64,000 nucleotides of DNA from Macrocystis pyrifera. Lineage: Eukaryota; Sar; Phaeophyceae; Laminariales; Laminariaceae. Within the stretch, counting starts at the first letter, position 1. Each line of letters begins with the position of its first letter. The stretch covers positions 14,687,468 through 14,751,467 of the forward strand of contig JASSKH010000002.1 of assembly GCA_031763025.1 (NCBI GenBank). Direction: 5' to 3'. Shown here piece after piece: positions 2,744-63,851 of the stretch. The position numbers and the translations under genes are program-made. Under the pieces are notes generated by a model, which searched no databases, was not told the origin of the DNA, and saw only the letters and a list, made by a program, of their open reading frames with translations.

Positions 2744-4275
2744 TGTAGTGCAGGGCAAGGGTTGCCCTGCTGTTCCCTAGGTGTTACCATGTAATAAAAA
2801 AAGGTTGGACGGAGGTATGAAAATTCTCTCGCGACGTCGATATTTGCCACGTAGAATATTTTACTTGTTTGGAGATGCTGCAGTTCCCGTTATTTCGAAG
2901 CAAAAAACCAAAACATATCTTCACAGTCGCATCGCGCAGATTGCGATGACCTCGACGTGTCGCGAACACAGTCATACCAAACAAACCAAAACATAACTTC
3001 ACAGTCGCATCGCGCAGATTGCGATGACCTCGACCTGTCGCGAACACAGCCATACCAAATAAAACGCCGGAGTTAAATCCAATATGACAAAAGGCATACA
3101 AGTTGACTTTTCGCAGATGATCGTTACGTAAATACACCCCGTAAACAACACTCTGTCGACCGAACAGTTAACATAAATGTAGCTGCGCAGAACTCGAAAG
3201 GCTGGACGCGCCGTGCAACATTTCTGCAAAATGTGTTCTAGCAAAAAGACGGAAACAAGAAGGCAGGCAGTCCGAATCGAGAAGCACTATCACACAAAAA
3301 ATCTAAACGTTTTCAACACACATGTGAAGAACATGTGAGACGCTCAAGGCGGCGGTACGTCGGAGTCGAGCCGGCAAGGCACAGCTGCGCTCCCCACATC
3401 GTAGTGGCCAGGACTTCGGTAAGGCGGAGGCGTGATGGGTCCTTGTCTAGTCGCCTCGATTATCTCCGCGCGTTCTTGGCTTGCGCGCTCATCGTAGCTA
3501 GCACTATGGTATGGTGTCGTTCGTGCCTGGGGAGCAGGCAAGGTCATAGACTTTCGAAGGTAGATGCCGTAACCATGATACCAATCGTAGTCGAAATCGT
3601 CGCAAGACGTGGTACTCCCCCCGAGTATACAATCGTACTTCAACCACCGCCCTCTCGAACGCAACTGGGTCACGAAATGGTTCGGAATGGAGTAGATGAC
3701 AGCAACGAGGCAGTACTCAACGCCTATCATCAAAATGGGTGACGGTGCTGGCGGCTCTCCGGCGTCCTCGCAGATGTCTACACGAGCAGACGCGAAGAAA
3801 ACGCGATCTGGGGCGTTGTCCGCACTCCAAGGAGGAATCGACCATGCGGATGTGCTGATGTGCCGGGCGCAGCTTCTCGTCGCAGGGGGGGCACGGAGCA
3901 GGTCCAGGAAGTGAGAAGTCGGAGGCGGCCCAGGTCAGGAACAAGGTATTGACTGCATCCTGGCGTGACTGGGGTGGTCCGTGCGGAATCAAGACTGGTG
4001 CGGTATCTCGCCATCGTGCACATTGGGATGTGGTTATCTCGATATGGCCATGGTCTCCTCGACATGGCAATCGGTAGTGTAGTTGCCAGTTGAATCCGAG
4101 AGCCGTCCGAGTGTACATGATGCGAGCATGCCGTTCCACGACGTCACCTGGCCATCCGCTGTTGGGGTGGAGTTGATCATCATGTCGAAGGATGATCGCT
4201 TCGTATACGGAGCCTGGCGTTCCCATTACGGATCCTGCGCCCGACTGATTCTGTAGTAAAATTCTATCAGTCACA
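2744..4275 (-). mobile_element. He element copy 1b, truncated (3' portion)
   Basis: This is the 3' end in coding orientation of an He element. It has the hairpin at 2750-2770 (stem GCAGGGCAA / TTGCCCTGC, loop GGG) and then the inverted-repeat motif TTCCCTAGGTGTTACCAT at 2773-2790. The body aligns with 15114-16480, 47199-48565 and 59674-61095. Similarity to the 59674 copy continues to GGATCCTGCGCCC near 4242 and is lost shortly after, so the 5' half of the element is missing. TAATTG flanks the left end. It carries the degraded USP-like peptidase described separately. Confidence 0.75.
3344..4274 (-). pseudogene. USP-like (C19) cysteine peptidase fragment, He copy 1b
   Basis: The minus-strand coding remnant is split over two frames. 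The upstream piece (4274-3717) contains an IEITxSQCARW segment, a CPPC zinc-type pair and SLECGQRP, then runs out of frame. The downstream piece (3733-3344) starts just before YCLVAVIYSIPNHFVTQLRS and GRWLKYD. The latter resembles the C-terminal His box of ubiquitin-specific peptidases (Y-x-L-x-A-V-I ... H-F-V ... W-x-x-Y-D). A four-G run near 3810 (three G in He copy 2) accounts for the frame break. The Cys box would lie upstream in sequence missing from this copy. Family assignment rests on motif resemblance only. Confidence 0.5.
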
Positions 4276-4754: not shown

Positions 4755-6525
4755 CACCCATCTCACAGTACTCGCAGTATCTCGAGTACAAAACCTGCGA
4801 GTGTACCAAGTACCTACGATAATATTAGCAGTATTTTCTCGAACATACTTTGCTTTACTCTCAACTATTGGGAGTAGCTGTGAAATGTTGAGGTGTGAAC
4901 GCACGCCACACGTAAGCGCGCCCAAACTCTTCACCTTGGGTAAAAACACACATGTAACCTGTATATCATATTATACGTTCAGAAAAGCAAGGTGGATGCA
5001 TGTACTGGTTGGTACAAAAAAAGTCAGAAGTGGAAAAAAAACACACACAACTTGTATTACAGTGTATCATACTATACGCTCAGAAAAGCAAGGTGTGGAC
5101 GAATGTATTATTATTAATAGTACTGTTGTAGTCCTGGTACAAAAAAAGCCAAAAGTGAACTTAAAAAAAAGCGTGGATGGTGCGAGTCGAACCTCGGAAA
5201 CGAAAATTTTATCGCGCGCAGTGGAAACGTCTACGCTAGAACAGTGCTCGAACAACTCGCACGTCGTGTTTTTTACGAAATCTAAAACACTCTGCACGAT
5301 CTCCTACAGCAGTAGAGTAGCTTGTACAGGTACGACTGCATATACAGCAGTACTGCTGTAGAATGCCACGCGAGGAACGTACGTGTACTGACCCCCTTTC
5401 AGCTGGCTCTAGGATCTATCGGTCAGCAATGTAGGACACACAGCAATGATAACTACCACCGTAAGTCTGTTTTGTACGAACGCTGCTGTACGAATAATTT
5501 GTTGTACATTACGAACGATTTGCTTTTGTTGTATTCGAGACGACGAATATATCGATCCGGGGATAATGGGTCACACACTGCGGAACGTACGTGCATCGGC
5601 CAATGCCGATGACAACAAATACGAACCACAGTAGTACTGAGCTTACAGCGCGGATCTTCCACATGCGCATAGTACCATGCCTGCTGCTGTTGTTGGCGCA
5701 CTGTGCTGAGCACAGCCGGAGCAGTGGCAATGTTGGATCACACAGCAATAAGCAGAATAAGAGGATTCTGAAGCAGGGAGAGAGGTGTGTGATGCTGGTT
5801 GGTGTGTTCGTGGCGTGGTCAAGTGATCGACCGAATAAACCAATTGTGATAGCCGCAGTACGATCATCCATACACGCAAGGTGTGGCCACTGCTGCTGCT
5901 GCTGGGCAGCAGGGTTGTGGTGCTGTAGGAAGCTAGAGGTAAGCATGCTCTGTGCACTGCTGTGGTTATTGCTCTCTAGGCGGTGGTCCGTTCTCCGTGC
6001 AACACAAAAAAGTACAGGGATATATGTCATCCTGGGTATATACAGATCGAAAAGAATATGGCAGACGGTGGAATGCGGACTGCAGGCTCCGACAAACGCA
6101 ACCAACCACAGCAACACTGCGCATATGGGTGTGTCGCACACGCACGGCGGGGGGGCGGCAGCGTTGGAACGTTGCGATCTGTGCATATTGTCTGTTGTGT
6201 ACCTGGTATGTGTCTTGAGCTGTGTGCTCACAGCTCGTGAGAGCCTAGTGGAGAAAACAGACTGCATGATATGTATGAACCAATACGTACGTACAAAGTA
6301 AGGCCTCTTACTGAAACCAGGGAAATCGTCTTATCCACTCCCGCCGGAAAAAAACTTTGAGCGCCCGCCACGCGCTTCAGAGTGCACGGATCGCGCCGAG
6401 ACGTAGACCAATGTGTCCGGCAAGGCTTCCGTGTCCGCGTACTTAGTGTTTTGCCTAAAAGTGCTCGTGCGAAGAGAAAACTTGGCAAAAGTACGAAAAT
6501 TTGACAAATATACGTATATATATGG
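4755..6525 (+). repeat. Long inverted duplicate, copy 1 (partner 36815-38165, opposite strand)
   Basis: Reverse-complement similarity to 36815-38165 runs from ACTCGCAGTAT motifs near 4765, through CGAACATACTTTGCTTTACT at about 4840, to the terminal block GACAAATATACGTATA near 6510. This copy is longer, with extra sequence at about 5560-5880. A 236-aa plus-strand frame (5591-6301) aligns with a 159-aa minus frame at 37522-37043 but needs at least one frameshift, so coding is not supported. TAC/GTA triplets and palindromic GTACGTAC are frequent. Confidence 0.75.
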
Positions 6526-15625: not shown

Positions 15626-16485
15626 GTGAGACGCTCAAGGCGGCGGTACGTCGGAGTCGAGTCGGCAAGGCACAGCTGCGCTCCCCACGTCGTAGTGGCC
15701 GGGACTTCGGTAAGGCGGAGGCATGATGGCTCCTTGTCTAGTCGCCTCGATTATCTACGCGCGTTCTTGGTTTGGGCGCTCATGGTAGTAGCTAGCACTA
15801 CGGTATGCTGTCGTTTGTGCCTGGGGAACAGGCAAGGTCATAGACTTTCGAAGGTAGACATACACATGCTGGAAACCATGATACCAGTCATCATAGTCGA
15901 AATCGTCGCAAGACGTGGGACTCCCCCGAGTATACAATCGTACTTCAACCACCGCCCTCTCGAACGCAACTGGGTCACGAAATGGTTCGGAATGGAGTAG
16001 ATGACAGCTACGAGGCAGTACGCACCGCCTATTATCAAAATGGGTGACGGTGCTGGCGGCTCTTCGGCGTCTTCGCAGATGTCTACACGTGCAGACGCGA
16101 AGAAAACGCGATCTGGGCGTTGTCCGCACTCCAAGGAAGAATCGACCATATGCATGTATGTGCTGATGTGCCCGCGCAGCTTCTCGTCGCAGGGGGGGCA
16201 CGGAGCAGGTCCAGGAAAAGAGAAGTCGGAGGCGGCCCCGGTCAGGAACAAGGCATTGACTGCATCCTGGAGTGACTGGCGTGGTCCGTGCGGAATCAAG
16301 ACTGGAGCGGGATCTCGCCAGCACATTGGGATGCGGTTATCTCGATATATATGGCCATGGTCCTCGACATGGCAATCAGTAGTGAAGTTGCTAATTGAAT
16401 CCGAGAGCCCTCCGAGTGTACATGATACGAGCATGCCGTTCCACGACGTCACCTGGCCATCCGCTGTTGGGGTGGAGTTGACCAT
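15626..16485 (-). pseudogene. USP-like (C19) cysteine peptidase fragment, He copy 2
   Basis: This is the longest uninterrupted reading of the peptidase C-terminal part, a 215-aa ORF from 16485 to 15838. A zinc-type CPPC lies at residues 96-99 with LEC at 118-120. VFFASARVD follows at 127-135, then YCLVAVIYSIPNHFV at about 156-170 with GRWLKYD at 177-183. This order (finger cysteines, a hydrophobic strand, then the His box) is that of the second half of ubiquitin-specific peptidases. Here a GGG run near 16116 keeps the finger and His-box segments in one frame, whereas the other three copies have GGGG. The catalytic Cys box is missing, so the fragment cannot be active. Confidence 0.55.
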
Positions 16486-27955: not shown

Positions 27956-30463
27956 TTAGTCGGATTTGTTCTGATGCCTCACGGCCTGCGCTGCCGATAT
28001 GCCTCGCTCTCAGCGCTTGCGAGACCGCCGTTCGTGGTCTGCCTCCGCCCTTATCGTCTTCGTTTCAGACTTGCCCCACTGCAGGGAGATGGACGGGGCA
28101 TTGCCTTCGAAGTTTCGATCGGTTGTTGTTCCTTTTCCTTCGGCCTGCTTTCTTCCCGGTTCGGTGCCCGGGAGTTGCGGACCTTTCGCGCGTGCCCGAT
28201 ATCGGTTTCGGCGAGGTCGTGTCGTCGCGTTCTTTTTGTGACGTCCTGCGACCTCTCGCGTGGAGGAACGGACGACGTGTCTGCGAGCTCGTGTGCTGTT
28301 AATTCATAAATAATATTATTACTACTGCTGCTGTTCATAGTTGTCGACCCCTGCCGAGTGCGTGCGATTCAATACTTCTTATTAATAGCACAGCAGCAGT
28401 GAGGAGAGTCATTCCAACTGCAGCGGCAGTGCGTTGCGAAAAGCAGTAGGCTGATAGAAAAATAACTTTGATTATGTTCATAGAACAGAGTGCGTTGTGG
28501 GTTTCTCGGGTATTCTGTTTTCTTCATTTCGTCTCCCCGAGTTCGGCAAATAAATGTACGTACCCCGGGTGTGGGTGTGTACCCATGAAGGGTACTACTT
28601 ACAGCAGGAGGCGAGTGCGTGCGATTCAATACTTTTTATTCCTAGCAGCAGTGAGGAGGGTTATTCCAACTGCAGAGGCAGTGCGTCGCGAAAAGCAGTA
28701 GGCTGATAGAAAAATAACTATTATTGTATTTTTTGTAGAGTGCTTTGTGGGTTTCTCGGGTATTCTGTTTTCTTGATTTCGTCTCCCCGAGTTCGGCAAA
28801 TAAATGTACGTACCCCTGGTGTGGGTGTATACCCATGAAGGGTACTACCTACAGCAGGAGTACATGTGGTCTTCCTACTTATTTCAAGCCTTTCGAGTCT
28901 CTGTCTTACATTCCAAATCCGGGGTGGTCGTAGAGCAAGCTCTTCGCCTCCCTCCCCACTATCATAATATGGTGTGGAGCAACCGGTCCTTTCTTTTATG
29001 CCTGCGTGTCGTTTGGGCGGGGGGGGAGACTAACCCATTATTTACTGCAGTCACGCTTTGTGGACGAACCGCTCCAATCTCCGGGTGGTCGTAGAGCACA
29101 AGCTCTTCTCTTCCCACCCAGTTCTGTTTCCAGGGCAGATCATTTTTGCGTACCATCCCTGAAATTCTCCAACGAGCTGGCCATATTTTCTTTATCGCAC
29201 TGCCTCGGCAACACCGGGGTTTTTTTTACCGTATGTATGTAACAACAAGCGTCATCACTCTTATTGCTTTTATTCGTATTAATAATAAATAATATTAATG
29301 CTGTAACCCATTTTTTTGCTTTGATTTTGATGTATCGGGGATACAATCCGATCAAAACACGAACTAAAATTTCACAAATTCCAAACTATATTTTGGGTAC
29401 TGGAAAAATGAATTTGGTCGCAAGCATGTTCACCTGCCTTTTGATGTATATATGCGGGCGTCACAGGATAGGAAGCTCGCAGCACGCACATACATTTATT
29501 AATAGTACATGCAGCAGCAGTAGGCTGATAGAAAAATGAGTATTATTTCATAGAGTGTGTTGTGCGTTTCTCGGGTATTGTGTTTTCTTGATTTCGTCTC
29601 CCCGAGTTGAGCAAATTTACGTACCAGGTTTGTACGTGTGTATACCCATAAAGAGTACTACATACAGCAGCAGTATAGCATGTGTTGATAGGAGATGGTC
29701 TTCTTCCTCACTATCCTGTTTCAACCCGTTAAGCCTCTGTCTTATAACCTAGATCCGGAGTGTTCGTAGAGAAAGCTCTTCTCCTCCCTCCCCACAATAG
29801 TACAATTATCAAGCATGTCATGTGCTGTGTGGTAATTTCTACTCCATCATCCGAGGGACCAACAACCAATGATATGTTTGTCAGGAGTTGTGGATCAGGG
29901 GCGTAACAATCCTTCATTTTCAACGTACGTAATTTCTTCCAGATGACGCAGTGTTGTTTTCGTTGTTTAGTTTCCAGTGTAAAATCATTTTGGCGTACCA
30001 TCACTGAACTTCTCCAACGAGCTGTCCATATTTTCTTTGACGTAACGGGGATACCTTTTTCACGTAAACCGATCACATACGCACGTTTTTGTCGTGAAGT
30101 TTGTGTTGTGTGTGATTGGACTTCTGAGCAGCAGTGAGATGACTATTAATATTATATTATTACTTTTAATATTAACAAACAACTACCGAGTACGTACGTA
30201 GTTCTGAGCAGCAGTGATACAGGAGTACGTCGCAAAAAGCACTACAAGGCTGAGAATAACTATTAATATCAATTCAATGACTACTGAATGAAGTACAGCA
30301 ACCCTTTCAAGCCTCTGCATTATAACCTAGATTCGGAGAGTGGTCGTAGGACAAGCTCCTCTCCTCCCTCGACACTATCGATTCCGCTGAGATCGTGTTG
30401 TTAACGATGACGTTCTTTTCATGTCCTGCGACATCGCCAAACGGCTATTATAATAAATATTAA
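27956..30463. repeat. E module copy 0 of the H-G-E macro-repeat
   Basis: Aligns with 32455-36800 (allowing an insertion there) and 55920-59650. It begins at AGTCGGATTTGTTCTGATGC and ends with CATCGCCAAACGGCTATTA. Internally it repeats two shorter motifs several times. One is a block with CAGCAGTGAGGAGAGTCATT and GTTTCTCGGGTATTCTGTTTTC (about 28355, 28610, 29540). The other is a block with TTTCCAGG...AAATCATTTTTGCGTACC and TCTCCAACGAGCTGGCCATA (about 29105, 29975). Confidence 0.75.
27974..28338 (-). other. Conserved open frames in E module, coding uncertain
   Basis: A 111-aa plus frame (27974-28309) is open at identical length in the other E copies (32462-32797, 55937-56272). On the minus strand a 95-aa frame (28338-28051) is highly charged, with KRTRRHDLAETDIGHARKV and NREESRPKEKEQQ. 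In the 55937 copy the minus reading continues as ETKTIRAETDHERRSRKRRE. The minus composition looks more protein-like, but the third copy is frame-shifted on that strand. No family is recognised. Confidence 0.25.
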
Positions 30464-30571
30464 TATTGCGGGGGGCCATAGTAAATAGGACCAAATACTG
30501 ATAGTAAAAAAGTGTAATAAAGAATATTTTTTTTGTGTATACTCTAGGTCCTACTTCCTATGGACCCCCAT
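30464..30571. mobile_element. Palindromic MITE-like element at the start of H module copy 1
   Basis: GGGGGGCCATAGTAAATAGG on the left is matched by CCTACTTCCTATGGACCCCC on the right, around an AT-rich core of about 60 bp. It is preceded by AATATTGC. Same family as 11482-11587. Confidence 0.6.
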
Positions 30572-31010
30572 ACAAAATAGAACATTTTTTTCACAGCAGC
30601 AGTAGACTATATAAACCAGATAGAATACAAGGTGAAACCATCTTTTTGTTTACTTCGGAGAGATTATTTTTTGTATCCTCTCCCTGCATTCTGCACTTCA
30701 GCTTTTTAACATTTTTTTCCCCCCCGATCTTTCGCACGCAACCCATAATTTTCTATTCGCCCTATTTTTTTTTTGCTGCCTTCTGGGAGGTGTCGTATGT
30801 AGCCTAGATCCGGGGTCGGTCATGCAGCAGGTTCTCCCCCCGCCTCCCCGCTGTTTCTTGTCAAATATAAAAAAGAACACACTGCCTGGTGTGAACTATT
30901 ACTACATAATGCAGTACAGCAGCAGAAAAATACACTGGCCGGTGTGTTGTTCCTTTGATGATGTCCTGCGTGTTATGTTTATATAGGGGGGAGATTAACT
31001 CTTTTAGTAC
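30572..31010. repeat. H module copy 1
   Basis: Matches 46761-47198 and, at its start, 63936-64000. Landmarks are TTTGTTTACTTCGGAGAGAT, TCCCTGCATTCTGCACTTCA, ACACACTGCCTGGTGTG and TTCCTTTGATGATGTCCTGC. No ORF is preserved. Confidence 0.7.
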
Positions 31011-36814: not shown

Positions 36815-38165
36815 TGGTATGTATACGTATATTTGTCAAATTTTCGTACTTTTGCCAACTTTTCTCTTCGCACGAGCACTTTTAGGCAAAACAGTAAGTA
36901 CAAGGACACGGGAAGCCCTGCCGGACACATTGGTCTAGGTCTCGGCGCGATCCGTGCACTCTGAAGCGCGTGGCAGGCGCTTAAATTTTTTTTTTCCGGC
37001 GGGAGTGGATAAGACGATTTCCCTGGTTTCAGTAAAGAGGCCTTATTTTGTACGTACGTACCGGTACATTGCCATGCTCTCTGTTTTCTCCCCCCGGCTC
37101 TCATGAGCTGTGAGCACACAGCTCAGGCATATACCAGTACACAACAGACAACATGCACAGATCCCATCGTTCCAACGCTGCCGCCCACACGCCGTGCGTG
37201 TTCGGCACGCCCATATGCGTAGTGTTGCTGTGGTTGGTTGAGTTTGTTGGAGCCTGCCGTCCGCATTCCACGGTCTGTCATATATTTTTTTATCCGTATG
37301 TACACAGGATGACGTACAACATCCTGTACATTTTTTTTGTGGTGTTGCACGGAGCACAGACCACCGCCTAGAGAACAATACCCACAGCAGTGCACAGAGC
37401 GTGCTTACCTCCAGCTTCCTACAGCACCACAACCAACCCTGCTGCCCAGCAGCAGCAGTGGGCACACCTTGCGCGTGTGGATAATCGTACTGCGGCCCAT
37501 TCGTACAGCAGCGTTCGTACAAAATATACTTATAGCAGTACAGCAGTTAGTAGTTCTGATTGCAGTGTGTCCCACATTGCTGGCCGATATATCCTAGAGC
37601 CAGCTGAAAGGGGATCAGTACACGTGCGTACGTTCCTCGCGTTGCATTTTACAAAAGTACTGTTGAACATGCAGTCGTACCTGTACAAGCTACTCTACTG
37701 CTGTAGGAGATCGTGCAAAGTGTTTTAGATTGCGTAAAAAACACGACAAGCCAGTTGTACGAGCACCGTTCTAGCGAACACGTTTACACTGCGCTGGATG
37801 TACAACATTTTCGTTTCCGAGGTTCGACTCGCACCATCCACGTTTTTTTTTTTAGTTTCACTGTTGACTATTTTTGTACCAGGACTACAACAGAGTACTA
37901 CAGTAATAAAAATAATACATTCGTCTACACCTTGCTTTTCTGAACGTATAATATGATAGTGTAAGAGTACATGTTACTTGTGTGTTTTAGCGCGCGCTTG
38001 CGTGTGGCGTGCGTTCATACCTCAACATTTCACAGCTACTCCGAATACTTGGGAGTAAAGCAAAGTATGTTCGAGAAGATACTGTTGCCATTATTACCGT
38101 AGGTACTTCGTACACTCGCAGTATTTCGGGGTTTTTGTACTCGATATACTGCGAGTACTCGCAGT
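36815..38165 (-). repeat. Long inverted duplicate, copy 2 (partner 4755-6525)
   Basis: Reverse-complement match to 4755-6525, with landmarks TATACGTATATTTGTCAAAT at 36823 and CTTCCTACAGCACCACAACC at 37421. GAGGTTCGACTCGCACCATC (37820) and AGCAAAGTATGTTCGAGAAG (38058) follow. It is shorter than copy 1. It joins directly to the end of an E module, so one end of the duplication used that junction. Confidence 0.75.
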
Positions 38166-41305: not shown

Positions 41306-42108
41306 AATGCTAATAATAATGCTGCCGCAATATTCACAGGATGTTCGCATGTACTCGGATTATTGTTTTTCTTGATCGTTTTTTGTACCTAAATGGTCGT
41401 TTGGGTACCTGGAAAAAATATTTTGGTCATTTTGCTGCTGCATTTTGCGTACGTACAGCTTTTTTTCTCGTTTTGGGCTTCGTTCTTTCCATATCGCGCT
41501 GCTACGCTGCTGTGGTGCTGCTGCTGCGTTGTACATCATGCTGGTCATTTGTGTGTACATATTTTTGTTTCGCCAATGAAATTCCGTAGCTTTAGCGGTC
41601 GCGGCATACCAGGGTACGTACTTTGTTTCTTTTTTTTATCATATCTTTGCTACGCCGCTACTGCTGCCAACGCTGCGGCGATCCATTGCTGCTTCTGCTG
41701 CTGCTATTGTTGCTAATGCTGATGCAACCACTGCTCGAAGCCGTTGCGGCTGCTGCTGCTGCTGCTGCGGCTGATGCTGCTAATGCTGGCTCAACATCTA
41801 CTGATTGTTCTTATGTATTCGGATTACTGTTCTTCTTGGTTTTTTTTGCACCCAAATGGTCGTTTTGGTACGTTTTAAAAAAAATATTTTGGCCGTTTTC
41901 CTGCTGCGTTTTACGCATGTACTTGCTGCTTCTGCTACTGCTGCTGCCGTCGTATAGCAAGCGATTACGTACTGCTGTTGTGCCGCTGTAGAGCAGTACA
42001 AATAATGAACTCTGCCCCCCCCCCCCCCCCCCCCCCCCCTTCCCCCTCCCCCGCCATTCCCTGCACGCCACTCCCGCCCCGCGCACCCTATATGTTTACT
42101 TCGACCAG
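39729..42108 (+). repeat. Intron filled with CTG arrays and ~400-bp subrepeats, copy 1
   Basis: A run of about 12 CTG (39826-39862) is followed by four or five diverged units near 40075, 40515, 40805, 41220 and 41640. Each has CATATCGTTGCTATG, CTG/GCC-rich patches, GCAATATTCACTGAATGTTC, GTACTCGGATTATTG, and CATTTTGCGTACGTAC. The intron ends with a run of more than 20 C (about 42016-42038) before the acceptor. Poly-Ala, poly-Cys and poly-Ser frames across it are artefacts of the triplet repeats. Confidence 0.75.
42016..42038. repeat. Poly-C run before exon 3, copy 1
   Basis: An uninterrupted run of about 23 C followed by TTCCCCCTCCCCC. It lies about 70 bases before the inferred acceptor and may act as the polypyrimidine-rich tract. 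Copy 2 has a longer run. Confidence 0.8.
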
Positions 42109-43279
42109 GTAGGTGGCAAGTGCTACAACTGCCGCCTGACGGACTCCACCATCAAAGACGGAGACATCATCCTCAAGCGCAAGAAGACTCCCTTCCATTT
42201 CGCCTACTCCAGGGCTTCGCGGAATTCCGAAGCAGTACGCCAAGCAGATTGTCTCCATCCAGGACGAATGAGAGGCAACAAATTGTTCCCACATTTCCCA
42301 AAATCACGATTATTTCCCCCTACACATACCCAACGGGTTAAACAGCGGACAGATCCACATTCTGGGCCTCCCGCCTCGTTACTACAGCAGCCTGGAAGAC
42401 TATTTACATATCATGTCTCATCCAAACTCCTATGCTGGTTAAATCGAAATCGCGGCCGCCCAGCAACTATACAACATTTCCATAACCGTTGTCGTTGCTG
42501 GCACTGCTGCTTTCCCCTCTGTCCCGAACCTTTCTGAAACAACAGCCTGTATGTTGTATATCATCCACATGCCATGCACTACTCCACTCTTTCCCCGCAC
42601 TGATGAAAGATGTTATCCTTATTATTAGACGAATGTCATTCTTACTCTTGCGTCACCCGATCTTACGTTTCACATCACATTCACAAATAAACGCGGTTAT
42701 TACATCCTTCACCGTTTCTTACACAAATACATTTAGTTTGGTTGGCTTTGAGTATTGCCCCAATTGCAATATAACTGCAACTGGAGTCATAACATTTAGG
42801 TTGGTTGGCTTTGGGCTAATACCCCAATTGCAATATAACTGCAGCAATTGGCGTCAAAGCCAAAAGCCAACCAAAACTGTAATTGGCGTCATAGCCCAAA
42901 GCCAACCAAATTAAATGTATTTGTACAAGAAACGACGGAATACCCACTCCGAAGGAAAGCCTTGTAAATATAAATACAACTATAATTACGATTTTTGAGG
43001 TCGTTGTCACTTGCTAGCTCTTGGCAGACAGACCGACTGATAGACAGCTCTTCGCAAACAGCCCTTCTTCTTTGAAACAGCCGAACAGCCAAACAACCTT
43101 TCTTCCTTCTTTGAAACAGCCGAACAGCCAAACAACCTTTCTTCATTATTTTTCGCCAAACAGCCAAACAACCTTTTCTTCTTTCTTCTTCCGCAAACTG
43201 CCAACCAATAGACAGCTCTTCGCACGGCGCCTAAAAGAGGCGTCTCGCCTTCGACGAACGGCATAGATAGGTGCAGCTG

Positions 43280-45399
43280 TAGGCTGCCAAGCTGCTGCTG
43301 TCGGTGGCGAACCTGCTGGTGCTGCAACCCCCGCATCTCCCTTCTCCACGCCCCCTAAGCTCACCTCCCTCTCGTCGAGAGGCGCGTGGTCCTCGCCCTC
43401 TGGCAAGAGAGCGGCAACGACAAAGACCGACCTGGTGCCGGCTGTTGTTTGCGACCAGTGCACGGACCAGCACTTGGTCAAGAACTCCGCGCCTGGTGGC
43501 AAAAAACGTGGCCTTCGCCACCAGCAAGGATCTCATGTGCGTGGTGGCGGGATCATCCTGACAGGGCAACCGACTGCGAGTTCTGTGCTCGCCCGATCAA
43601 GGAAGGGACTGTCTCGTACTCCCTCGAGACTGCTGACAGTGGTGAGTGTCTTATGTCTATTGTGCATGCTGTATGTTGTCAGTACGTTTTTTGGGGGTTT
43701 TCAATTGCCTTTTTGCATACAATCCTACGTCAAAGCGTTTATTTATTTTTTGACTCATCCATGCTCGTTCTTTCCCCTTCGTGCGTTGCGTCGGCTCCTC
43801 TTACACACAGTGCACGCGAACGCGCACATGCACAACTGTTTGCAGGACGTGAACGAAGGAACGGAAAATTCAGCTGTCGCCGTCACCGCTGCACCGAACG
43901 ACGTGAGTGCTGCTGCTACTGTGGTGCTTTTTCGGTGCATGCACACGATTTCTGTGTGTACATGTTTTTTTGGTGACCCCACGTACTCATTTTTTGCTCG
44001 TGTTCGGCTGCCGCTGCTGCTGTGCACCTGCTTCTCCTGTGCACTCGCTGCTGCTGTAGTGCTGCTGCGTTGTTGCCGTGCTGTGCACCTGCTGCTCCTG
44101 TGCAATTGCTGCTGCTGTATGTAGTGCTGCTGCGTTGTTGCCGTGCATCATGCTGGAAGCGTACATATTTTCGGATCGTCAATTCCGTAGGTTTTGCGAT
44201 GGCGGCATACCAGGGTACATGCTTTTTTTCTTCCTTATTTTCATATCGTTGCTATGCTGCTGCTGCTGCTGCTGCTGCCAACGCTGCTGCCAACGCTGCC
44301 AACGCTGCGGCGATTCGTTGCAGCTTCTGCTGCTGCTAATGCTGTGGCTGCTTCTGCTGCTGCTGCTGCTAATGCTGCCGCAATATCCACTGAATGTTCG
44401 TATGTACTCGGATTACTGTTTTTCTTGGTCGTTTTTGTACTCAAATGGTTCCTTTTGATACGGGAAAAAATATTTTTGTCGTTTTGCTCCTGCATTTTGC
44501 GTACGTACTGCAATTTCTCGTTTTAGGCTTTGTTATGTTCATATATATCGTTGCTATGCTGCTGCTGTGGTGCTGCTGCGTTGTTGCCGTACATCATGCT
44601 GCACTTGTGTGTGTACATATTTCGGTATCGTCAATGAAATTCCGTAGGTTTTGCGATTGCGGCATACCAGGGTACATACTTTTTTTCTTCCTTATTTTCA
44701 TATCGTTGCTATGCTGCTGCTGCTTACGCGGATTATTGTTTTTATTGGCCATTTTTGTACCCAAATGGTTTTTTTGATACGTAAAAAAAAATATTTTGGT
44801 CGTTTTGCTCCTGCATTTTGCGTACGTACTACTTTTTCTCGTATTTCGTATTGTTGCTAAGCTGCTGCTGCGTTGTTGCCGTACAGCACGCGGAGGTGGG
44901 TCTATAGTGAGGTACCAAAAATACTTCTCGGACGGCCTCGGGGTACATACTTTTTTTCTCCCTTCTTTTCATATCGTTGCTATGCTGCTGCTGCCAACGC
45001 TGTGGCGATCCGTTGCTGCTTCTGCTGCTGCTGCTGCTGCTGCTCTGCTTTTAATGCTGCCGCAATATTCACTGAATGTTTGTTCCTGGTCGTTTTGTGG
45101 CGCTGCTGCGTTGTTGCCGTACATCATGCTGGACATGATTTGTGTGTCTATTACACTTAAACTTGTGCGTGTGTACATATTTCTGTATCGTCAATGATTT
45201 TTTGTGGTGCTGCTGCGTTGTTGCCGGACATCATGCTGGACGTGATTTGTGTGTGTACTGTACTACACTTGTGTGTCTACATATTTCTGTATCGTCAATG
45301 AAATTACGTACTTGCTGCTTCTGCTGCTGCTGCTGCCGTCGAATAGCAAGCGATTACGTGCTGCTGTTGTGCCGCTGTAGAGTAGTACAAATAATGAAC

Positions 45400-45437
<38 letters not shown>

Positions 45438-46003
45438 TTCCCCCTCCCCCGCCATTCCCTGCACGCCACTCCCGCCCCGCGCACCCTATATGTTTACTTC
45501 GACCAGGTCCGTGGCAAGTGCTACAACTGCCGCCTGACGGACTCCACCATCAAAGACGGAGACATCATCACCAAGCGCAAAAAGACTCCCTTCCATTTCA
45601 CCTGCTCCAGGGCTTCGCGGAATTCCGAAGCAGTACGCCAAGCAGATTGTCGCCATCCAGAACAAACGAAAGGAAACAAATTGTTTCCCACATTTCCCAA
45701 AATCACGATTATTTCCCCCTACACATATCCAACGGGTTCAACAGCGAACAGATGCACATTCTGGGCCTCCCGCCTCGTTACTACAGCATCCTGGAAGACT
45801 ATTTACATATCATGTCTCATCCAAACTCCTATGCTGGCTACATCGAAATCGCGGCCGCCCAGCAACTATACAACATTTCCATAACCGTTGTCGTTGCCGG
45901 CACTGCTGCTTTCTCTCCTGTCCCAAACCTTCCTTTAAACAACAGCCTGTATGTTGTATATCATCCACATGCCAAGCACTGCTCCACTCTCTCCCCACAC
46001 TGA
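43280..46003 (+). pseudogene. Zinc-finger plus OTU-like peptidase gene, copy 2 (broken, best OTU half)
   Basis: Exon 1 ends at 43641, exon 2 is 43811-43902 (again 92 nt) and exon 3 starts at 45507. Exon 1 reads VVCDQCTDQHLVKNSAPGGK and is then frame-shifted by an extra A in an A6 run (43500-43506), before CEFCARPIKEGTVSYSLE. Exon 3 keeps the full finger KCYNC ... FHFTC. The ORF 45518-46003 holds an OTU-like C-terminal half: LEDYLHIMSHPNSYAGYIEI (residues 92-111), AAAQQLYNISITVVV, then NSLYVVYHPHAKHCSTL with the candidate catalytic His (residue 154), ending in a natural stop. The finger and OTU parts are in different frames, and the Cys box was not located. The family is inferred from the pattern Y..M..p.sYxGyIEi.A and the terminal H-C-S-T-L. 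Confidence 0.5.
43903..45506 (+). repeat. Intron with CTG arrays, copy 2
   Basis: Same subrepeats as copy 1 (units near 44240, 44555, 44695 and 44970), closed by a C run of more than 30 (about 45401-45437) before TTCCCCCTCCCCC and the acceptor at 45506. Confidence 0.7.
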
Positions 46004-46230: not shown

Positions 46231-46654
46231 TATTATTATTCTTGCCTTCTGACAAAATAGCGTATTGTAGTACCAGTATGTACGTATGTGCTGCACCTTA
46301 TCACTCAGGCGGTCACAAATTATGGCGCAACCTCGACCTCGCGCAACTTTTATGTACTTACGAATTCATCGCCGCGAGTCAGCTGGATCAATATATCTCC
46401 ATTTACCGATACCCTGTTATATATTATTGTAGTAATGACCCCACACCAATTCCGCGAACAGCAGTACAATATAGTCTGTCCTAAAAAATATGTTGTGTGT
46501 GTTCTTCACGTTAAAATGATGGGTGGGTGCAGATGCTACTTCTTCTATAAACAAGTGTGCAGGGTTTCATACGAGTACGAGTATTATAATTTCGCTCTTG
46601 CGCCACTCCCCTATTAATACGGCACCTCCCGGAGGGGAACCTTGTAAATATTAA
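46231..46654. other. Spacer between gene duplication and H module, nothing recognised
   Basis: No repeat partner or gene seen. The junction to the H palindrome reads AACCTTGTAAATATTAATAT, whose CCTTGTAAATAT also ends copy 1 of the 4.1-kb duplication at 42960. Confidence 0.4.
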
Positions 46655-47198
46655 TATTACGGGGGGCCATTGTAAATAGGACCAAATATTGTTAGTAAAA
46701 AAGTGTAATAAAGTATATTTTTGTGTATACTCCAGGTCCTACCCCCTATGGACTCCCATACCAAATATACCATATTTTCAAAGCAGCAGCATAAACCACA
46801 GATAGACTACTAGGTGAAACAATCTTTTTGTTTACTTCGGAGAGATTATTTCTTTGTATCCTCTCCCTGCATTCTGCACTTCAGCTTTTTAACATTTTTT
46901 TCCCCCCCGATCTTTCGCACACATCCCATTATTTTCTATAAACCCTATTTTTTGCTCCCTTCAAGGAGGCGTCGTATATAACCTAGATCCGGGATCGGCC
47001 ATAGAGCAAGTTCTCACCCCGCCTCCCCGCTGTTTGTTGTCAACTATAAAAAAGAACACACTGCCTGGTGTGCACTATGAATTCTACATACTGCAGTACA
47101 GCAGCAGATAGATACACTGACTGGCCGTTGTGTTCCTTTGATGATGTCCTGCGTGTTATGTTTATATAGGGGGGCGAATAACTCTTTTAGTACTACTA
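46655..47198. repeat. H module copy 2 with palindromic MITE at its start
   Basis: The palindrome at 46655-46760 (GGGGGGCCATTGTAAATAGG ... CCTATGGACTCCC) is followed by the H sequence, ending at AACTCTTTTAGTACTACTA. There He copy 3 interrupts it; the continuation of the same repeat is found at 54506. Confidence 0.7.
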
Positions 47199-47708: not shown

Positions 47709-48563
47709 GTGAGACGCTCAAGGCGGCGGTACGTCGGAGTCGAGCCGGCAAGGCACAGCTGCGCTCGCCACGTCGTAGTGGCCAGGACTTCGGTAAGGCG
47801 GAGGCGTGATGGGTCCTTGTCTAGTCGCCTCGATTATCTACGCGCGTTCTTGGCTTGGGCGCTCATGGTAGCTAGCACCACGGTATGCTGTCGTTTGTGC
47901 CTGGGGAACAGGCAAGGTCATAGACTTTCGAAGGTAGACATACATATGCTGGAAACCATGATAACAGTCGTAGTCGAAATCGTTGCAAGACGTGGTACTC
48001 CCCCCGAGTATACAATCGTATACTTCAACCACCGCCCTCTCGAACGCAACTGGGTCACGAAATGGTTCGGAATGGAGTAGATGACAGCTACGAGGCAGTA
48101 CGCAACGCCTATCATCAAAATGGGTGACGGTGCTGGCGGCTCTCCGGCGTCCTCGTAGATGTCTACACGTGCAGACGCGAAGAAAACGCGATCTGGGGCG
48201 TTGTCCGCACTCCAAGGAAGAACCGACCATACGGATGTGCTGATGTGCCGGGCGCAGCTTCTCGTCGCAGGGGGGGCACGGAGCAGGTCCAGGAAATGAG
48301 AAGTCGGAGGCGGCCCCGGTCAGGAACAAGGCATTGGCTGCATCCTGGAGTGACTGGTGTGGTCCGTGCGGAATCAAGACTGGTGCGGGATCTCGCCATC
48401 GTGCACATTGGGATGCGGTTATCTCGATATGGCCATGGTCCTCGACATGGCAATCGGTAGTGAAGTTGCCAGTTGAATCCGAGAGCCGTCCGAGTGTACA
48501 TGATACGAGCATGCCGTTCCACGACGTCACCTGGCCATCCGCTGTTGGGGTGGAGTTGATCAT
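47709..48563 (-). pseudogene. USP-like (C19) cysteine peptidase fragment, He copy 3
   Basis: The 241-aa minus ORF (48563-47838) reads through TSWNGMLVSCTLGRLSD, DHGHIEITASQCARW, HQSLQDAANALF and CPPCDEKL. It then passes into a shifted frame at a GGGG run (48196), so the SLECGQRP-to-His-box part is out of register. The His-box frame lies in 48118-47918 (YCLVAVIYSIPNHFV). This copy best preserves the part ahead of the zinc pair, where SQCARW and SLQDA...LF recall the fingers region of USPs. No Cys box. Confidence 0.5.
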
Positions 48564-49619: not shown

Positions 49620-52351
49620 TTCTATTGGCAAGCGTAGCCCAGGCCAGCCCAAAGAGGCGGGAACCTGCTTCCAGCATGTCTATTCTTTTTAGATGATGTG
49701 CTTCGTGAGGGAGCAAGCGTGTGTGTATTTTGAAGATGAGATCGAGGTCCTGGAGGAGAGGACGTGTGTGTGAGAAGAGTGAGGAGATGCCGCACCAGGA
49801 GAGCAGCAGCGATCCCAGCGGGGCCAAGTTTGAGCCGGACGTGGCAGAATCGCTTGGCACTGGTGGCGAAGGCGCTGGAGAATAGTAGTTGCAGGGACAG
49901 CAGCAGCTCCAGCAGCACCGTCAGCAACGTCGGCAGTCAGAGGATTGCTGCACTTTTGTTGCGACGATGAAGCGCATGCCGTAAGCACCGTTTCCGCCGC
50001 GGTCGTGTCGACCGCCGCGTAACCGTCGCTGCTGCAACACCCCGGGATAGCCAGGCATCTGCCTGAACCTGTGGGTTCGCTGCGCGCTGGCGACATAAAT
50101 GTACGAGAACGTATATTATTATATGAAAGAGGGAGTTTGGCCGGCAGGAGCCGGGAGGGAAGGTGGAGACCGCGGGAGCGACGCTGAAAGCGTTCTGGCA
50201 GAATCCTCCTGGACTGCTGAAGCACCACGCCCGCAGGTGGTTGATGGGGGGGACGTTGCCCCCGAGGAAGGAGTCGAGGGAGAGAGCGAAGATGGGCGCA
50301 GGGGGGGGAGTCTGTATCATCATCTGTTCGGGATGCGGTGCCCCAAGAGAAGGGATCGAGGCGCCACCGGCAAGGACTTACGTCCGCACCAGGCACGTTT
50401 GGCTTTGTTGATTGACTGCTGTGGTGATTTTCGTTTTTAAATTGATTGTGTATCGATTTGAGAGTAGGAGAGAATCTGCGAACATTGGAAATTCAGATTT
50501 ATTTGGGAACACTGGAAATGAAATGAGATGAACAGACGTATACGTATACGTATACGTATAGCTTCCCTCACTGAGGTTTTTCTGTAGACGCACTGCTGTA
50601 GGACTATGACGCCTGTCTGTTTTATGGTTGACTGGTCGAGGGCGCTGGTTGAGCATCGACACGAGTACAGCAGAAAGAGGTGTATGTGATGAACCCTTGT
50701 GCCCAACTGTACAGCAACACGTCTGATTGCGGCATTTCACATATTTACATCTTTGTTTGCGGGTATCTCGTTTTTGAGTTGTTGGGTTGGTGTGTAGCAC
50801 GACCCGCGCCACTTGCTACGTGCTAAAGGCAAGATATTTATTTGCGGACGGAGTAATATACTACGAGTACAGCAGCAGCAGAAGTAGTATGGTACTGTGA
50901 GCTGAGACGAAAACGGTTTACTTGGCACTGCTGTATATGTTCATGAAGTATGGACTGCAGCACATATAGTGGTCGAGGAATACATGGGTTTGATGTGCAA
51001 CCAGATATTCTCGTTGACAAGTAGCTGTTTATTTGCAGTAGCATTTGAGAAGAGGAATTTGCAAGCAGTGCATGCGTGAAAAGAGCGAAACACCCAATGC
51101 AGACCTAATCGCTCGAATGCACGTCCCATCCCTTCTGTATGCCTGGTCAATGCTGCGGAGGCGACGTTTGATTTCACCCAGGAGGAATTAGCTGGATGAC
51201 CCCAGCTGCGGTGACGCCATGAGACCGAACGGAGAGGCAGCCGCGGCGGAGGCAACAGCAGTAGTGTTCGGGGCATCGGGGTGATTCTTACTGAAATGTG
51301 GTTGCCTTTGAATCTGGATGAATACTTTCATTGCTCGTATTTTGGAATAGTTTTTCTGGTCGATTTGGAGTCCGCGAGTTACTGGAGTTTTCGAGTAGTT
51401 TCACTATCAAATAAAATTCAAGTGAAGGAATGATGTATGCTATCTCGCATTACCGTCGCGATCTGTGTATCTATGGCGGGAGTAGGGGACAAGGGGAGAC
51501 CCTTGTCGTGGACGGGGTTCCTTGCGATCTATGGCATTTATTTTCTTGGCTTAATTTTTATTTTTGATGAGTAGGACTACTGCTGTGGTATTTTATATGA
51601 TTTGCATTAATTCCTCATGAAATAGAGGGAGATTTTTTTGATAAGGTTGAAGAGAGACTATGAAGCGCCTGGGGGCGTGTGCGGTCCATAGGAAATGTTT
51701 TCTGATTTGGAAGGTTTGGGTAGTATTTCGGAAATTGAGAGTTTGATTTTTTTTTGGTTCTTGAAAATTTGTGCTTTTGTTCAAAGTCAGTACTGACTGA
51801 GTGGTCTAGCAGGTAGTGCTATATAATTCCCTAGGGTGGGTCGGGAGCTGAAGTCTCGCCGAATTCGTAAGTTGATCTTTTCGAGCGTGCGCGCTGGAGA
51901 CAATACGGATGATTATGATGGTGTGCCCGTAGACACCAGTAGCGTTTGGCGAGGGGAGGGCCCCGGAGATCACTGTACTAAGTCGACGAGATTCCACTGA
52001 ATATCTTTAGACCAATTCCGCGGAAAATGCCGTTTTACCTGACTGAATCCAGAGAAGAATGCCGTTTTACCTGGCATTGGATTTCGAGAGTTGTATGTGT
52101 TTGCAACAGAGAGGCTGGGGATTTGAGCATTTGAATACTGATTTGAGGGTTTGAGTGTTGATTCAAGAATTTGATTTTTGAGTTACAGATTGGATTTTTG
52201 ACTTTCTGAGTTTGATTCGAGTTGATCTTTTTATTGAGATGTATCAGCCCTGCGATGTTGTACATTTTCATGTACAGAGCTGAGGGGAATGTTGCTCATG
52301 CACAGGAGCAGGGGGGATATGAGTATGGTCGTGTATATTGAGTAGGGGGGA
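49620..52351 (+). other. LTR element interior, no gene recognised
   Basis: The left 800 bp are GC-rich with overlapping frames, including 235 aa on minus (50396-49689) and 113 aa on plus (50099-50440). None has protease, reverse transcriptase, RNase H or integrase motifs. A (GTATAC)n-type microsatellite lies at 50536-50560. The right half is AT-rich. The size and lack of pol suggest a parasitic derivative that may carry captured sequence. Confidence 0.5.
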
Positions 52352-59673: not shown

Positions 59674-60159
59674 TGTAGGGCAGGGCAAGGGTTGCCCCGC
59701 TGTTCCCTAGGGTTTTACCATATAACAAAAGCTTGGCCGGCGGTATGACAATTCTCTCGCGACGTCGATATTGCCACGTAGAATATTACTTGTTTGCAGA
59801 TGCTGCTGTTGCCGCTATTTCGAAGCAAACATATAAACAAAACGTCACAGTCGAGCATCGCGCAGATTGCAATGACCTCGACGTGTCGCGAACACACCCA
59901 CACCAAATAAAACGCTGCCGTGAAGTCAAAGATGACAAAAGGCATACAAGTAGACTTTTCGCCGATGATCGTTACGTACATGCACCCCGTAAACAACACT
60001 CTGTCGACCGAACAGTTAATATAGATGTAGCCGCGCAGAACTCGAAAGGCTGGACGCGCCGTGTAACATTTCTGCAAAATTCGTTCTAGCAAAAAGAGGG
60101 AAACAAGAAGGTAGGCAGTCCGAATCGAGAAGCAATATCACATCAAAAATCAAAACGTT

Positions 60160-61095
60160 TCAACACACATGTGAAGAACACGGGAGACGCTCAAGGCGGC
60201 GGTACGTCGGAGTCGAGTCGGCAAGGCACAGCTGCGCTCCCCACGTCGTAGTGGCCAGGACTCGGTAAGGCGGAGGCATGATGGGTCCTTGTCTAGTCGC
60301 CTCGATTATCTTCACGCGTTCTTGGCTTGGGCGCTCATGGTAGCTAGCACTACGGTATGATGTCGTTTGTGCCTGGGGAACAGGCAAGGTCATAGACTTT
60401 CGAAGGTAGACATACATATGCTGGAAACCATGATACCAGTCATAGTCGAAATCGTCGCAAGGTGTGGTACTCCCCCGGAGTATGCAATCGTACTTCAACC
60501 ACCGCCCTCTCGAACGCAACTGGGTCACGAAATGGTTCGGAAGTGAGTAGATGACAGCAACGAGGCAGTACTCAACGCCTATCATCAAAATGGGTGACGG
60601 TGCTGGCGGCTCTCCGGCGTCCTCGTAGATGTCTACACGTGCAGACGCGAAGAAAACACGATCTGGGGCGTTGTCCACACTCCGAGGAAGAATCGACCAT
60701 GTGGATGTGCTGATGTGCCGGGCGCACTCTCGTCGCAGGGGGGGCACGGAGCAGGTCCAGGAAATGGGAAGTCGGAGGCGGCTCGGGTAGGAACAAGGCA
60801 TTGACTGCATCATGGAGTGACTGGGGCGGTCCGTGCGGAATCAAGACTGGTGCGGGATCTCGCCATCGTGCACATTGGGATGCGGTTATCTCGATATGGC
60901 CATGGTCTTCGATATGGCAATCGGTAGTGTAGTGCCAGTTGGATCCGAGAGCCGTCCGAGTGTACATGATACGAGCATGCCGTTCCACGACGTCACCTGG
61001 CCACCCGCTGTTGGGGTGGAGTTGATCATCAGGTCGAAGGGTGATCGCTTCGTTTATGGAGCCTGGCGTTCCCATTACGGATCCTGCGCCCGGTA
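60160..61095 (-). pseudogene. USP-like cysteine peptidase, middle and C-terminal part, He copy 4
   Basis: The upstream segment (61095-60720) reads HIEITASQCARWRDP, PQSLHDAVNALF. The zinc region here is mutated: CPPC is altered by a deletion near 60728. The 217-aa ORF 60813-60160 then reads RVFFASARVDIYEDAGEPPA, IGVEYCLVAVIYSLPNHFVT and GRWLKYDCI (the His box), followed by DDFDYDWYHGFQHMYVYL. A length change around 60725 and the GGGG run split the frames. The part belonging to the same protein as the Cys box upstream is probably joined by splicing (donor GTAAGT at 61314-61309). Confidence 0.5.
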
Positions 61096-61314
61096 GGCTG
61101 CTACTACCAAGGATCTTGTCACGTGCTTGAGCCAAACAATCCTGCATTCCGCCAAAGAATGCGACGCATACCGAACGAAATGATACAATACGTTTAGAAG
61201 ACACATGCAACCACAACGTAGTATTTATGCATATATGGGTACTTGCGGGCGACGGTAAGTATTGGGGGGTATTATTACGACGAGATGTGGATAGCAGAAC
61301 AAGCAAGAACTTAC

Positions 61315-61530
61315 CAAGAGGGTGCGTTGGAGAGGCTTGCCGTCGGACATGCAGGCACGCACAGCCGCAAGAGTGGAGAAGAAGATGGCTCCAGCTGGTG
61401 TTGCCATGGTTGGGTTGGGGAGAGGGTGTCCTTCCCAAACAGCTATGGCGGAGGCGATGGCGGTGTTGAAGAAGCAATTGTTGTTCTCATTGGGCGGCAG
61501 AAAAGGTGAAGGGCGGATGGAGCCGGTGTC
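61315..61530 (-). CDS. USP-like peptidase, catalytic Cys-box exon (partial)
   Basis: The minus frame ending at a GTAAGT donor (61314-61309) reads PPNENNNCFFNTAIASAIAV then WEGHPLPNPTM ... LAAVRACMSDGKPLQRTLL. NNNCFFNTAIASAIA matches the Cys box of C19 peptidases (N-x-C-F-x-N). The Cys codon is at 61476-61474. The frame differs by one base from the end of the helicase ORF, which overlaps it, and a TAG closes it upstream near 61560. A frameshift between helicase and peptidase, or a short intron, is therefore implied. The His box lies about 1 kb downstream in the same strand. If real, the domain would cleave ubiquitin or a ubiquitin-like modifier. Confidence 0.5.
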
Positions 61531-62099
61531 TGTCCGTCGTTGGTGTGGGATGTATAACTAGCCGGAGGACTTGTCGTGGCCGGTGGGAATGAAGAGGGAT
61601 CATCCAAGAACAAGGCTAGTGTGGCCTTGTCGAGGCGTTCGAGGTAGTCGATCATAGCCGCTACATCGTCGTCCTGTGGATGGGTCAGATCGTCGAGAGT
61701 AACCGGCGACAGCAAGAAGAGCTTGCTGGCATCGGTCGCTCGGGACAGAGCGACGCAGACAGCCGCGCTGTCCATATAGCCGTCTACTGGCTTACGAATG
61801 TCGAGCACAAGTTTAGGGATGGTTTCGCCTTGTGCTCGATAGACTGAGGAAAGAATGCCAAGAGACAGAGGCACCTGCATTCTGTTGATGGTGAATTTCC
61901 GCTTGCCTTTACCAACGATGGAGAACTTCCTGCAAACCGGACAGCAGCCGATGACACCTCGAGGGAGCCCGTCCAGCTTTAGCCCAGCTCTGTCGGCGGC
62001 GTCGATGTTTGGAAGGCTTGAGCTATACCAGGTAGGTGGTACTTCATCTTCACATATTTTCAAGGCTTGAGCTACAGAAGATAGCTCATCTACACACAT
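61443..62099 (-). pseudogene. Pif1-family helicase, C-terminal fragment
   Basis: The 218-aa ORF contains LDGLPRGVIG (residues 42-51), INRMQVPLSLGILSSVYRAQ with GET (71-93), LVLDIRKPV (97-105) and AVCVALSRATDASKLFLL (113-130). The blocks SxxYxAQGET and VALSR are helicase motifs V and VI of the Pif1/RecD-like SF1B group, also the C-terminal part of Helitron RepHel proteins. Walker A and B and the N-terminal half are missing; upstream sequence is replaced by a minisatellite that appears to supply the first residues. The Pro/Ser-rich tail (150-218) leads into the USP-like segment in another frame. Confidence 0.65.
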
Positions 62100-62260
62100 T
62101 TTCCCAGGCTGAGCTATAGGAGCTACATGAGTTACAGTAGCTCATCTGCGCCCGAGATGAGCTATAGGAGCTACATGAGCTACACATGTTTCCCCCGGCT
62201 TGAGCTATAGGCGGTAGCTCATCTGCACATGTTTCGAAGCGTGAGCTATGCACAATATAT
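62012..62260. repeat. TGAGCTATAGGAGCTA minisatellite
   Basis: About six degenerate units of 40-60 bp, each with GGCTTGAGCTATAGG, TAGCTCATCTGCACA and TGTTTCCCC-like segments. TGAGCTA and TAGCTCA are inverted, so each unit can form a hairpin. The array overlaps the start of the truncated helicase ORF. Confidence 0.7.
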
Positions 62261-62844
62261 GAGCGAGCTCATAAGCTGTCGGGGGGGTGCAGAAAGTTGA
62301 GTATCGACCGATCGGTTGAACTCACAGCTGACGTACAGATCCGACCAACCAAACAGGGACACATTCGACACAAGGAAAAAAAAACTGCTGTGAATCAACA
62401 GCCAAACCCTCTGGTCAAGAGTCACGAGCGACAGCGATAGATACAACGGTAGGTCGGTCTACAGCAGTCTACACCATCTGCACATCTGCACCCACCTCTT
62501 TTTTGAAGGCTTCAACCTGGACTGCTGTGTTGTTATTGTTGGGCTTCTCGCTGCTCGTGCCGAGGAAGCTGCTCGAATCTAGCGCTTTAGACTAGACCAC
62601 AAAAAAAAAAAGGCTACTGCGAGCGATTTTGCTTTCTTTCGTATCTTGCTCAGTCGCGGTTCGTGGCCGCGTCAGTCTCAGCCTTGGCATGTGTTCGGTA
62701 CGTAAGATCGCCTGACTTGCTGACCGGAGTATCCAACGGTTTGTATGTTTGTATGGGGTTGGACGACGCGGGTACAAGGGCATAGTTACTTATCGTCCCC
62801 TGAGTTGATTTTTTAAACGTGACTCACGAGTTGCGTTTACCGCT
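62261..62844. other. He copy 4-specific middle segment, nothing recognised
   Basis: No partner in other He copies and no ORF above about 66 aa. It replaces the ~210-bp tandem array found in copies 1a, 2 and 3. Confidence 0.4.
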
Positions 62845-63851
62845 TGCCCGTTCCACCGGTCAAAAAGAAAAAAAACGAACAGCAGAGCTTCCCTCTTAGC
62901 CTTGTACGCCGCCCGCCCGTCTCGCGACCACCTCATCATCGATTGGGTCCGGATAAAGTTTTCCTCCCTCTCTGCCACAGTGAGCGTCGTCGCCCGCCTC
63001 GCGTCAAGCCCGGTGCTCACCGTGGCCCTTCTTCGCCACTTCGACAAAGTTGGTGCTCAAACTGCATTGAAGTCTCTTTGAAGTTTAGTTTGGTCGAAAA
63101 AATAAGCACCGCTTGAATACTATTTCGCATATCAAAACGACCCTTATATCTCGTATATGGTGCAAGCGGAACCTCACAAGGAGGCCAGACAGACACCATT
63201 TGTGCTTCCTGCTTGTCTCGAGACACACGCTACGCCTAGCCATGCAAACGGCGAAGGCGCTACTTGCAACATCCCCTCTGCCTGCTAGCACCCGCTGACA
63301 CCCGCGGCGGCGCCGGGCTCGCCCGCGGTACCGTGTTCTGACTACACGCACGCTCACGAAACGAAACAAAATGGCTTCAGGTTATGTAAGCAACGCTTGA
63401 CTCGTACGTGGTATGTTCGTATGAATATGTATGAGTACGAGAAGGCGCTTCTATTGACGCACGCAGTGTTTGTTCGAAAATATAAGCTGTACCGGGACAT
63501 TGTTTGTTTGCCAGAAAACGGTATACCTTGACAGAAAATATCATATGACTTGGGTTTGGTGTGCCCTGATCACCTCGTTGTACTTTCCGTACCGTAAACT
63601 GGCAAAAAATACGATGGTGTACCGTTTTTTGGATTTTTTGCAAGTGAGACGGACGGGTATGGATGTTTCGCCAAAAAACGGTATACCTTGACAGAAAAAA
63701 TACCATCTTACTTGGGTTGTGTGTACCTTGATGGCCTGGTCAGAGTTTTTCGTACCGTAAAATGGCAAAAAGCGCTGGTGTACCGTTTTTTAGTATTTTG
63801 TCCGTTAGGACAGGAAATTAATTTTGCTTCTAGATGGTAAACCCTAGGGAA

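Follow-up and report, generated by a model that had tools for sequence, protein, structure and literature searches.

The 64,000-nucleotide stretch of Macrocystis pyrifera DNA analysed here (called the window below) contains, at positions 59674-63851 on the minus strand, a copy of a rolling-circle transposon in which the remains of a PIF1 helicase are followed by a conserved C-terminal domain. A preliminary description made from the letters of the window had called it a Helentron-like element carrying a USP-like (C19) cysteine peptidase behind the helicase. Taking ends, coding remains and genomic relatives jointly, we favour, by a modest balance, the view that it is a defunct Helitron2-type element that has lost internal sequence and whose parent carries a conserved tail with USP-like catalytic boxes. 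The features on which this account is based are as follows.

59674..63851, minus strand: whole rolling-circle element copy, 4178 bases, a non-autonomous deletion derivative, delimited by copies with the same ends and by uninterrupted paralogous sites
63836..63851, minus strand: 5' end TTCCCTAGGGTTTACC, the element start
61491..61943, minus strand: C-terminal part of the PIF1 helicase (motifs V and VI) with linker, found by the helicase-fragment genome search and a profile match (A1)
61315..61503, minus strand: Cys-box exon (N....CFFN), E 1e-3
61142..61314, minus strand: intron GTAAGT...GCAG, at the same site in the longer genomic copy L043
60160..61141, minus strand: exon 2 of the peptidase-like domain, carrying a frameshift here
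60457..60669, minus strand: His-box region (YCLVAVIYS..NHFVTQ...GRWLKYD)
59703..59719, minus strand: GGTAAAACCCTAGGGAA, a subterminal repeat of the 5' end in inverted orientation, giving the asymmetric terminal inverted repeat
59680..59700, minus strand: 3' terminal hairpin GCGGGGCAACCCTTGCCCTGC, -15.0 when folded with RNA parameters
30400..30575, minus strand: paralogous uninterrupted insertion site, GGTCCTA joined to TTTACTATGG

Read along the minus strand from 63851 to 59674, the element starts with TTCCCTAGGGTTTACC and closes with the inverted copy of that start, the hairpin and the terminal CCCTGCCCTACAA. Both boundaries, which the preliminary description had taken as defined, proved exact, because three flank paralogues in the window (at about 30480, 11500 and 46680) are unbroken at the same point, each being GGTCCTATTTACTATGG or one base off. 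Since these paralogues are intact and the element is flanked by CCTA on one side and TTTACTA on the other, the target site was not duplicated. The insertion target is a dispersed repeat with GGTCCTATTTACTATGG, present on the minus strand at 30400-30575, 11420-11590 and 46600-46763 of the window, and a genomic copy (L037) has an insertion with matching flanks in a repeat of this type. The 3' hairpin was also found in the window copies with 3' ends near 15128 and 47213; in short copies it folds strongly and the 5' end weakly. Asymmetric terminal inverted repeats, a terminal hairpin and insertion without duplication are given as marks of Helitron2 and Helentron elements in the portions consulted of PMC5148889 and PMC4067079, and the repeat and the hairpin occur together in the short copies of the present family. 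Within the element, directly upstream of the helicase fragment, a run of short GAGCTA/AGCTCAT-type repeats occupies 62010-62290 (minus strand).

The coding remains were located where they had been claimed, all on the minus strand: helicase motifs V/VI (YRAQGET, VALSR), read from the sequence at 61841-61740, then the Cys box, a CPxC and the His box. In PDB sequence searches, solved PIF1 chains were matched by the helicase part as a four-sequence profile (A1, E 0.0014) and by an L043 open reading frame (E 0.001). An addition to the earlier account is the intron at 61314-61142, which separates the Cys box from the His box. Its two splice signals occurred together in 28 of 40 sequences (the window and 39 loci, some overlapping one and the same copy), L043 among them, with an intron length of 168-186 bases.

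Four copies in the window retain the 3' end, and the peptidase half was said to be kept in all of them. This holds for the His half (4/4, at 60669, 3814, 48199 and 16116), but the Cys box is detectable in the reported copy alone (1/4). The His-box halves of the other three copies are listed here.

3602..3814, minus strand: His-box half of another window copy
15922..16116, minus strand: His-box half of another window copy (element about 19322-15113)
48002..48199, minus strand: His-box half of another window copy (3' end near 47199)

Across the 537 Mb of genome searched, the helicase-fragment query gave at least 150 matches (540 candidates, 150 of them scored) and the peptidase-exon query at least 192 (1290 candidates, 150 of them scored), both far above chance. 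Six 10-kb stretches were compared; both ends were matched in four, with an element of about 4.0-4.5 kb, and by pattern or BLAST check one or both ends were without a match in L033 and L036. The family thus numbers at least 150 matches, and the reported copy is among its many deletion derivatives. No relatives were found for A1 in IMG/VR or for a 302-position profile of the C-terminal domain (A3) in GTDB, and window 61225-61960 had no match in a phage collection. A PIF1 match at C204:5883000 was considered as a relative and rejected, as it looks like a cellular PIF1 gene.

The preliminary description had recommended looking in the genome for a longer copy with a Rep domain, and such a copy exists. 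L043 (C141:503500-512499), together with L045 upstream, presents in order DUF6570, an HUH Rep, PIF1, motifs V/VI, the Cys box and the His box; the profile matches are Helitron_like_N (E 2.7e-16) and PIF1 (E 4.5e-12) in L043 and, just upstream, DUF6570 (E 7.9e-9) in L045. Motif VI and the Cys box lie within one 493-aa open frame of L043, and likewise in a 271-aa frame of L033, so the helicase and the C-terminal domain are not two neighbouring genes, the outcome that would have spoken against the original proposal. A second family, with a Rep about 40% identical, preserves the arrangement: in L051, Rep (38-43% identity), PIF1 (35-53%) and the His part of the C-terminal domain (31-32%) still lie in order on one strand, and L053 retains Rep along with the His part of the domain (28-37% for the latter), without a PIF1 match. 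HUH Rep and PIF1 thus occur together in L043 and in L051. In a third stretch (L052) Rep is present and the peptidase match is unconvincing (best E 0.04). The fused architecture is solid, and we regard it as nearly certain that a conserved domain is joined to RepHel. The element ends of L043 were looked for and not found, and AP endonuclease had no match in the 11 plus-strand open reading frames scanned in L043/L045, one decayed copy; the rolling-circle part of the name Helentron-like is kept, and the strict Helentron name finds no support in these frames.

The C-terminal domain looks constrained at least as strongly as the helicase. Between families, Nei-Gojobori dN/dS (nonsynonymous over synonymous divergence) for L043 against L033, L037 or L038 was 0.17-0.20 in the Cys segment, 0.17-0.18 in the second exon and 0.27-0.29 in helicase plus linker; the ratios are rough, as dS in these comparisons is 0.9-1.8, near saturation, and this counts against the reading offered here. 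The predicted catalytic Cys is kept in 28/28 distinct segments reaching the position (34 aligned), the His in 34/35 and the Asp in 33/35 (40 aligned), while N(-5) of the Cys box is kept in 28/28 and N(+3) in 27/29 of the segments reaching it. This conservation is weak evidence of function, because most segments are recent copies.

For the class of the domain, A3 was compared, profile to profile, with USP boxes from host exons and USP7 (11 His-box and 10 Cys-box sequences), using column-shuffled profiles as decoys. The best A3 site for the USP His box was the predicted one (253-282), with 0/1000 decoys as high, and the USP Cys box likewise scored best where predicted (5-16), with 6/1000 decoys as high; because 11 blocks were tested in all, those of OTU and Josephin included, the Cys-box result is borderline after correction, and the His-box result would pass. 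The USP7 His box alone was likewise unequalled (0/400 decoys), though the match spans just 7 columns. In the first A3 row the spacing is 257 residues from Cys to His and 15 from His to Asp, compared with 241 and 17 in USP7. Two C19 features are present: Asn at -5 and +3 of the Cys in the Cys box, and an Asp/Asn after the His box.

A number of results weigh against a USP assignment, beginning with the narrow USP7 match just given. With hhalign, whole A3 reached only low probabilities (His box 38%, Cys box 3%). On the Cys box a reversed A3 profile scored 15.5, close to the 17.3 observed, and the Cys box of USP7 taken by itself failed (135/400 decoys). The USP zinc/LKRF box (40/500 decoys) and QQD box (133/500) both failed and fell at other sites. 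Pfam gave no significant match for the domain, UCH/C19 included, in window pieces, L043 open reading frames or A3; when L043, A1 and A3 were searched against PDB sequences, PIF1 alone came up below E 0.1, for the helicase part; the genome has 74 UCH matches, and in a comparison by eye none coincided with a listed element copy; and sequence-level hidden Markov models of host USP boxes did not rank element copies above shuffles. The material is also limited: the sample is three families from one genome, L043 is decayed (split frames, a stop within the C-terminal domain, Tyr where the Asp should stand), and no Cys box was seen in L051 or L053, both internally deleted. The check by C19 profiles that had been suggested from the outset therefore divides, ordinary profile searches being silent and the box-level comparison finding the Cys and His boxes. 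On this evidence the USP resemblance is supported for the catalytic boxes only, and the USP reading is plausible but unproven; a papain-like cysteine peptidase is probable for the C-terminal domain, and a USP-like deubiquitinase is a tentative assignment that falls somewhat short of an even chance.

The strongest competitor, which we consider unlikely, is a papain-like cysteine peptidase from some other class (a divergent OTU, Josephin-like, VTD or unnamed enzyme), acting in RepHel self-processing or on other isopeptide bonds. Papain-like enzymes in general have the His-box geometry of H-aromatic ... W ... D, the Josephin His box and the OTU Cys box align to the same His and Cys of A3, and a PIF1-OTU Helitron exists in the same genome; a Helentron OTU has also been proposed to self-cleave, in the consulted part of PMC4067079. 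The competing classes nevertheless fail against decoys: OTU blocks on A3 were equalled by 51/400 (Cys), 71/400 (W) and 58/400 (His) decoys, without an OTU profile match, and Josephin blocks by 80/400 and 230/400. The Asp-x-His of VTD, as the motif is given in the consulted part of PMC9741609, is absent: two residues before the His, four A3 rows have Pro and one has Arg. Peptidase_C98 (USPL1) had no match in hmmscan, and a genome search for it was likewise empty, with its control silent too; C48 had 2 matches in the genome. Somewhat less likely again is a C-terminal RepHel module that is no peptidase, for example a nucleic-acid-binding or metal-binding one, with coincidental Cys and His boxes. 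The silence of profile, PDB and middle-box searches would suit such a module, as would the modest Cys-box evidence once 11 block tests are counted, but the USP boxes match at the predicted sites in the correct order and Cys, His and Asp are retained. That a non-autonomous Helitron captured a host gene fragment, so that helicase and peptidase came to be joined by chance, is strongly disfavoured: Helitrons do capture genes and the window copy is broken, but the same fusion is found in L043, the same order in L051, and the splice site is conserved in a constrained sequence present in many copies.

We propose that the parent encodes a RepHel protein (DUF6570, HUH Rep, PIF1) with a conserved, probably papain-like cysteine peptidase C-terminus bearing USP-like catalytic boxes. 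In the general Helitron model the element strand is nicked, unwound and replicated, with a 3' hairpin as terminator; RepHel would mobilise the short copies in trans in this way, and the hairpin at 59680-59700 would end replication of the element strand. The C-terminal domain may act as a deubiquitinase that spares RepHel or host partners degradation, which would be its benefit to the element, or alternatively may serve RepHel self-cleavage. Of the helicase-deubiquitinase parent first envisaged, the conserved domain fused to the helicase is borne out, and the USP identity is backed at the catalytic boxes only. If the domain is USP-like, it would be a third class of Helitron deubiquitinase after OTU and VTD, unrelated classes having been recruited repeatedly to the same transposase; such a pattern would suggest that ubiquitin control generally holds rolling-circle transposons in check, and the fusion protein offers a testable object. 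Should the domain be something else, RepHel nonetheless has a conserved C-terminal domain missed by the profile libraries tried.

Elsewhere in the window, 4819-6522 and 36818-38094 form a large inverted repeat pair with arms 88-95% complementary, about 30-33 kb apart, and 49692-50492 (minus strand) has a weak match, below the cut-off, to the N-terminal domain of vanadium chloroperoxidase (E 0.0075).

A separate Helitron family of the same genome (L001, L002, L006, L007, L008) has long open frames of 695-1646 aa. In L002, PIF1 (E 1.4e-57) and OTU (E 4.3e-9) stand in a single frame, with a Rep-like HUH stretch at the start as judged by eye, and 11 of the 16 OTU matches of the genome lie directly beside PIF1 matches. 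The likeness to the reported family is a cysteine peptidase C-terminal to PIF1 in one open reading frame; the difference is that the reported family has no OTU match. The window itself carries an OTU-half remnant of a different Helitron family at 45398-46003 (plus strand; OTU E 0.0047, below the cut-off), beside GCT-rich tandem repeats, and a similar frame without a profile match at 41992-42537.

With USP/C19 enzymes (USP7 and host USP exons) the domain shares the Cys box of N(-5), C, an aromatic residue and N(+3), the His box Y.L.(A/G)V ... H(F/Y) ... W.(K/x)YD and a similar Cys-His spacing; it differs in the unmatched QQD and zinc/LKRF boxes, a His loop shorter in most copies and the lack of a Pfam match. 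Another Helitron2, Helinoto of icefish, reportedly has three deubiquitinase-like domains, to go by the title of Capriglione et al. 2014; by that title alone it resembles the present family, and the class of its domains could bear on novelty. With Helitron2 and Helentron elements, as far as PMC5148889 and PMC4067079 were consulted, the family shares asymmetric terminal inverted repeats, a hairpin, insertion without duplication and a Rep-PIF1 protein; it differs from Helentrons in a C-terminal domain unlike OTU and in the lack of AP endonuclease in the open reading frames scanned. Helentrons with OTU proteases are already known (PMC4067079, in part), in agreement with the earlier statement that some Helitron-group elements carry OTU-type peptidases. 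Erven et al. 2022 (PMC9741609, here and below for the portion consulted) described VTD deubiquitinases in animal Helentrons and showed them to be active, recorded OTU domains in 121 VTD-containing Helentrons as well, and proposed that Helentron deubiquitinases prevent the breakdown of transposition proteins, so the idea of a Helitron deubiquitinase is itself not new. The preliminary description could not place a USP-type partner; Helitron-borne OTU and VTD deubiquitinases are published, and a USP-like Helitron class was not found in the literature searched, a search in which subscription journals and Repbase were mostly uncovered. That Helitron-group transposons acquired deubiquitinases independently at least three times, as OTU, VTD and a divergent USP-like domain fused to the PIF1 end, with ubiquitin escape as a recurring need, is possible though doubtful. 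With the VTD Helentrons (PMC9741609) the present family shares a deubiquitinase-type domain, here predicted from sequence, on a Helitron protein; VTD uses Asp-x-His, and the domain reported here has the order Cys ... His ... Asp and no profile match.

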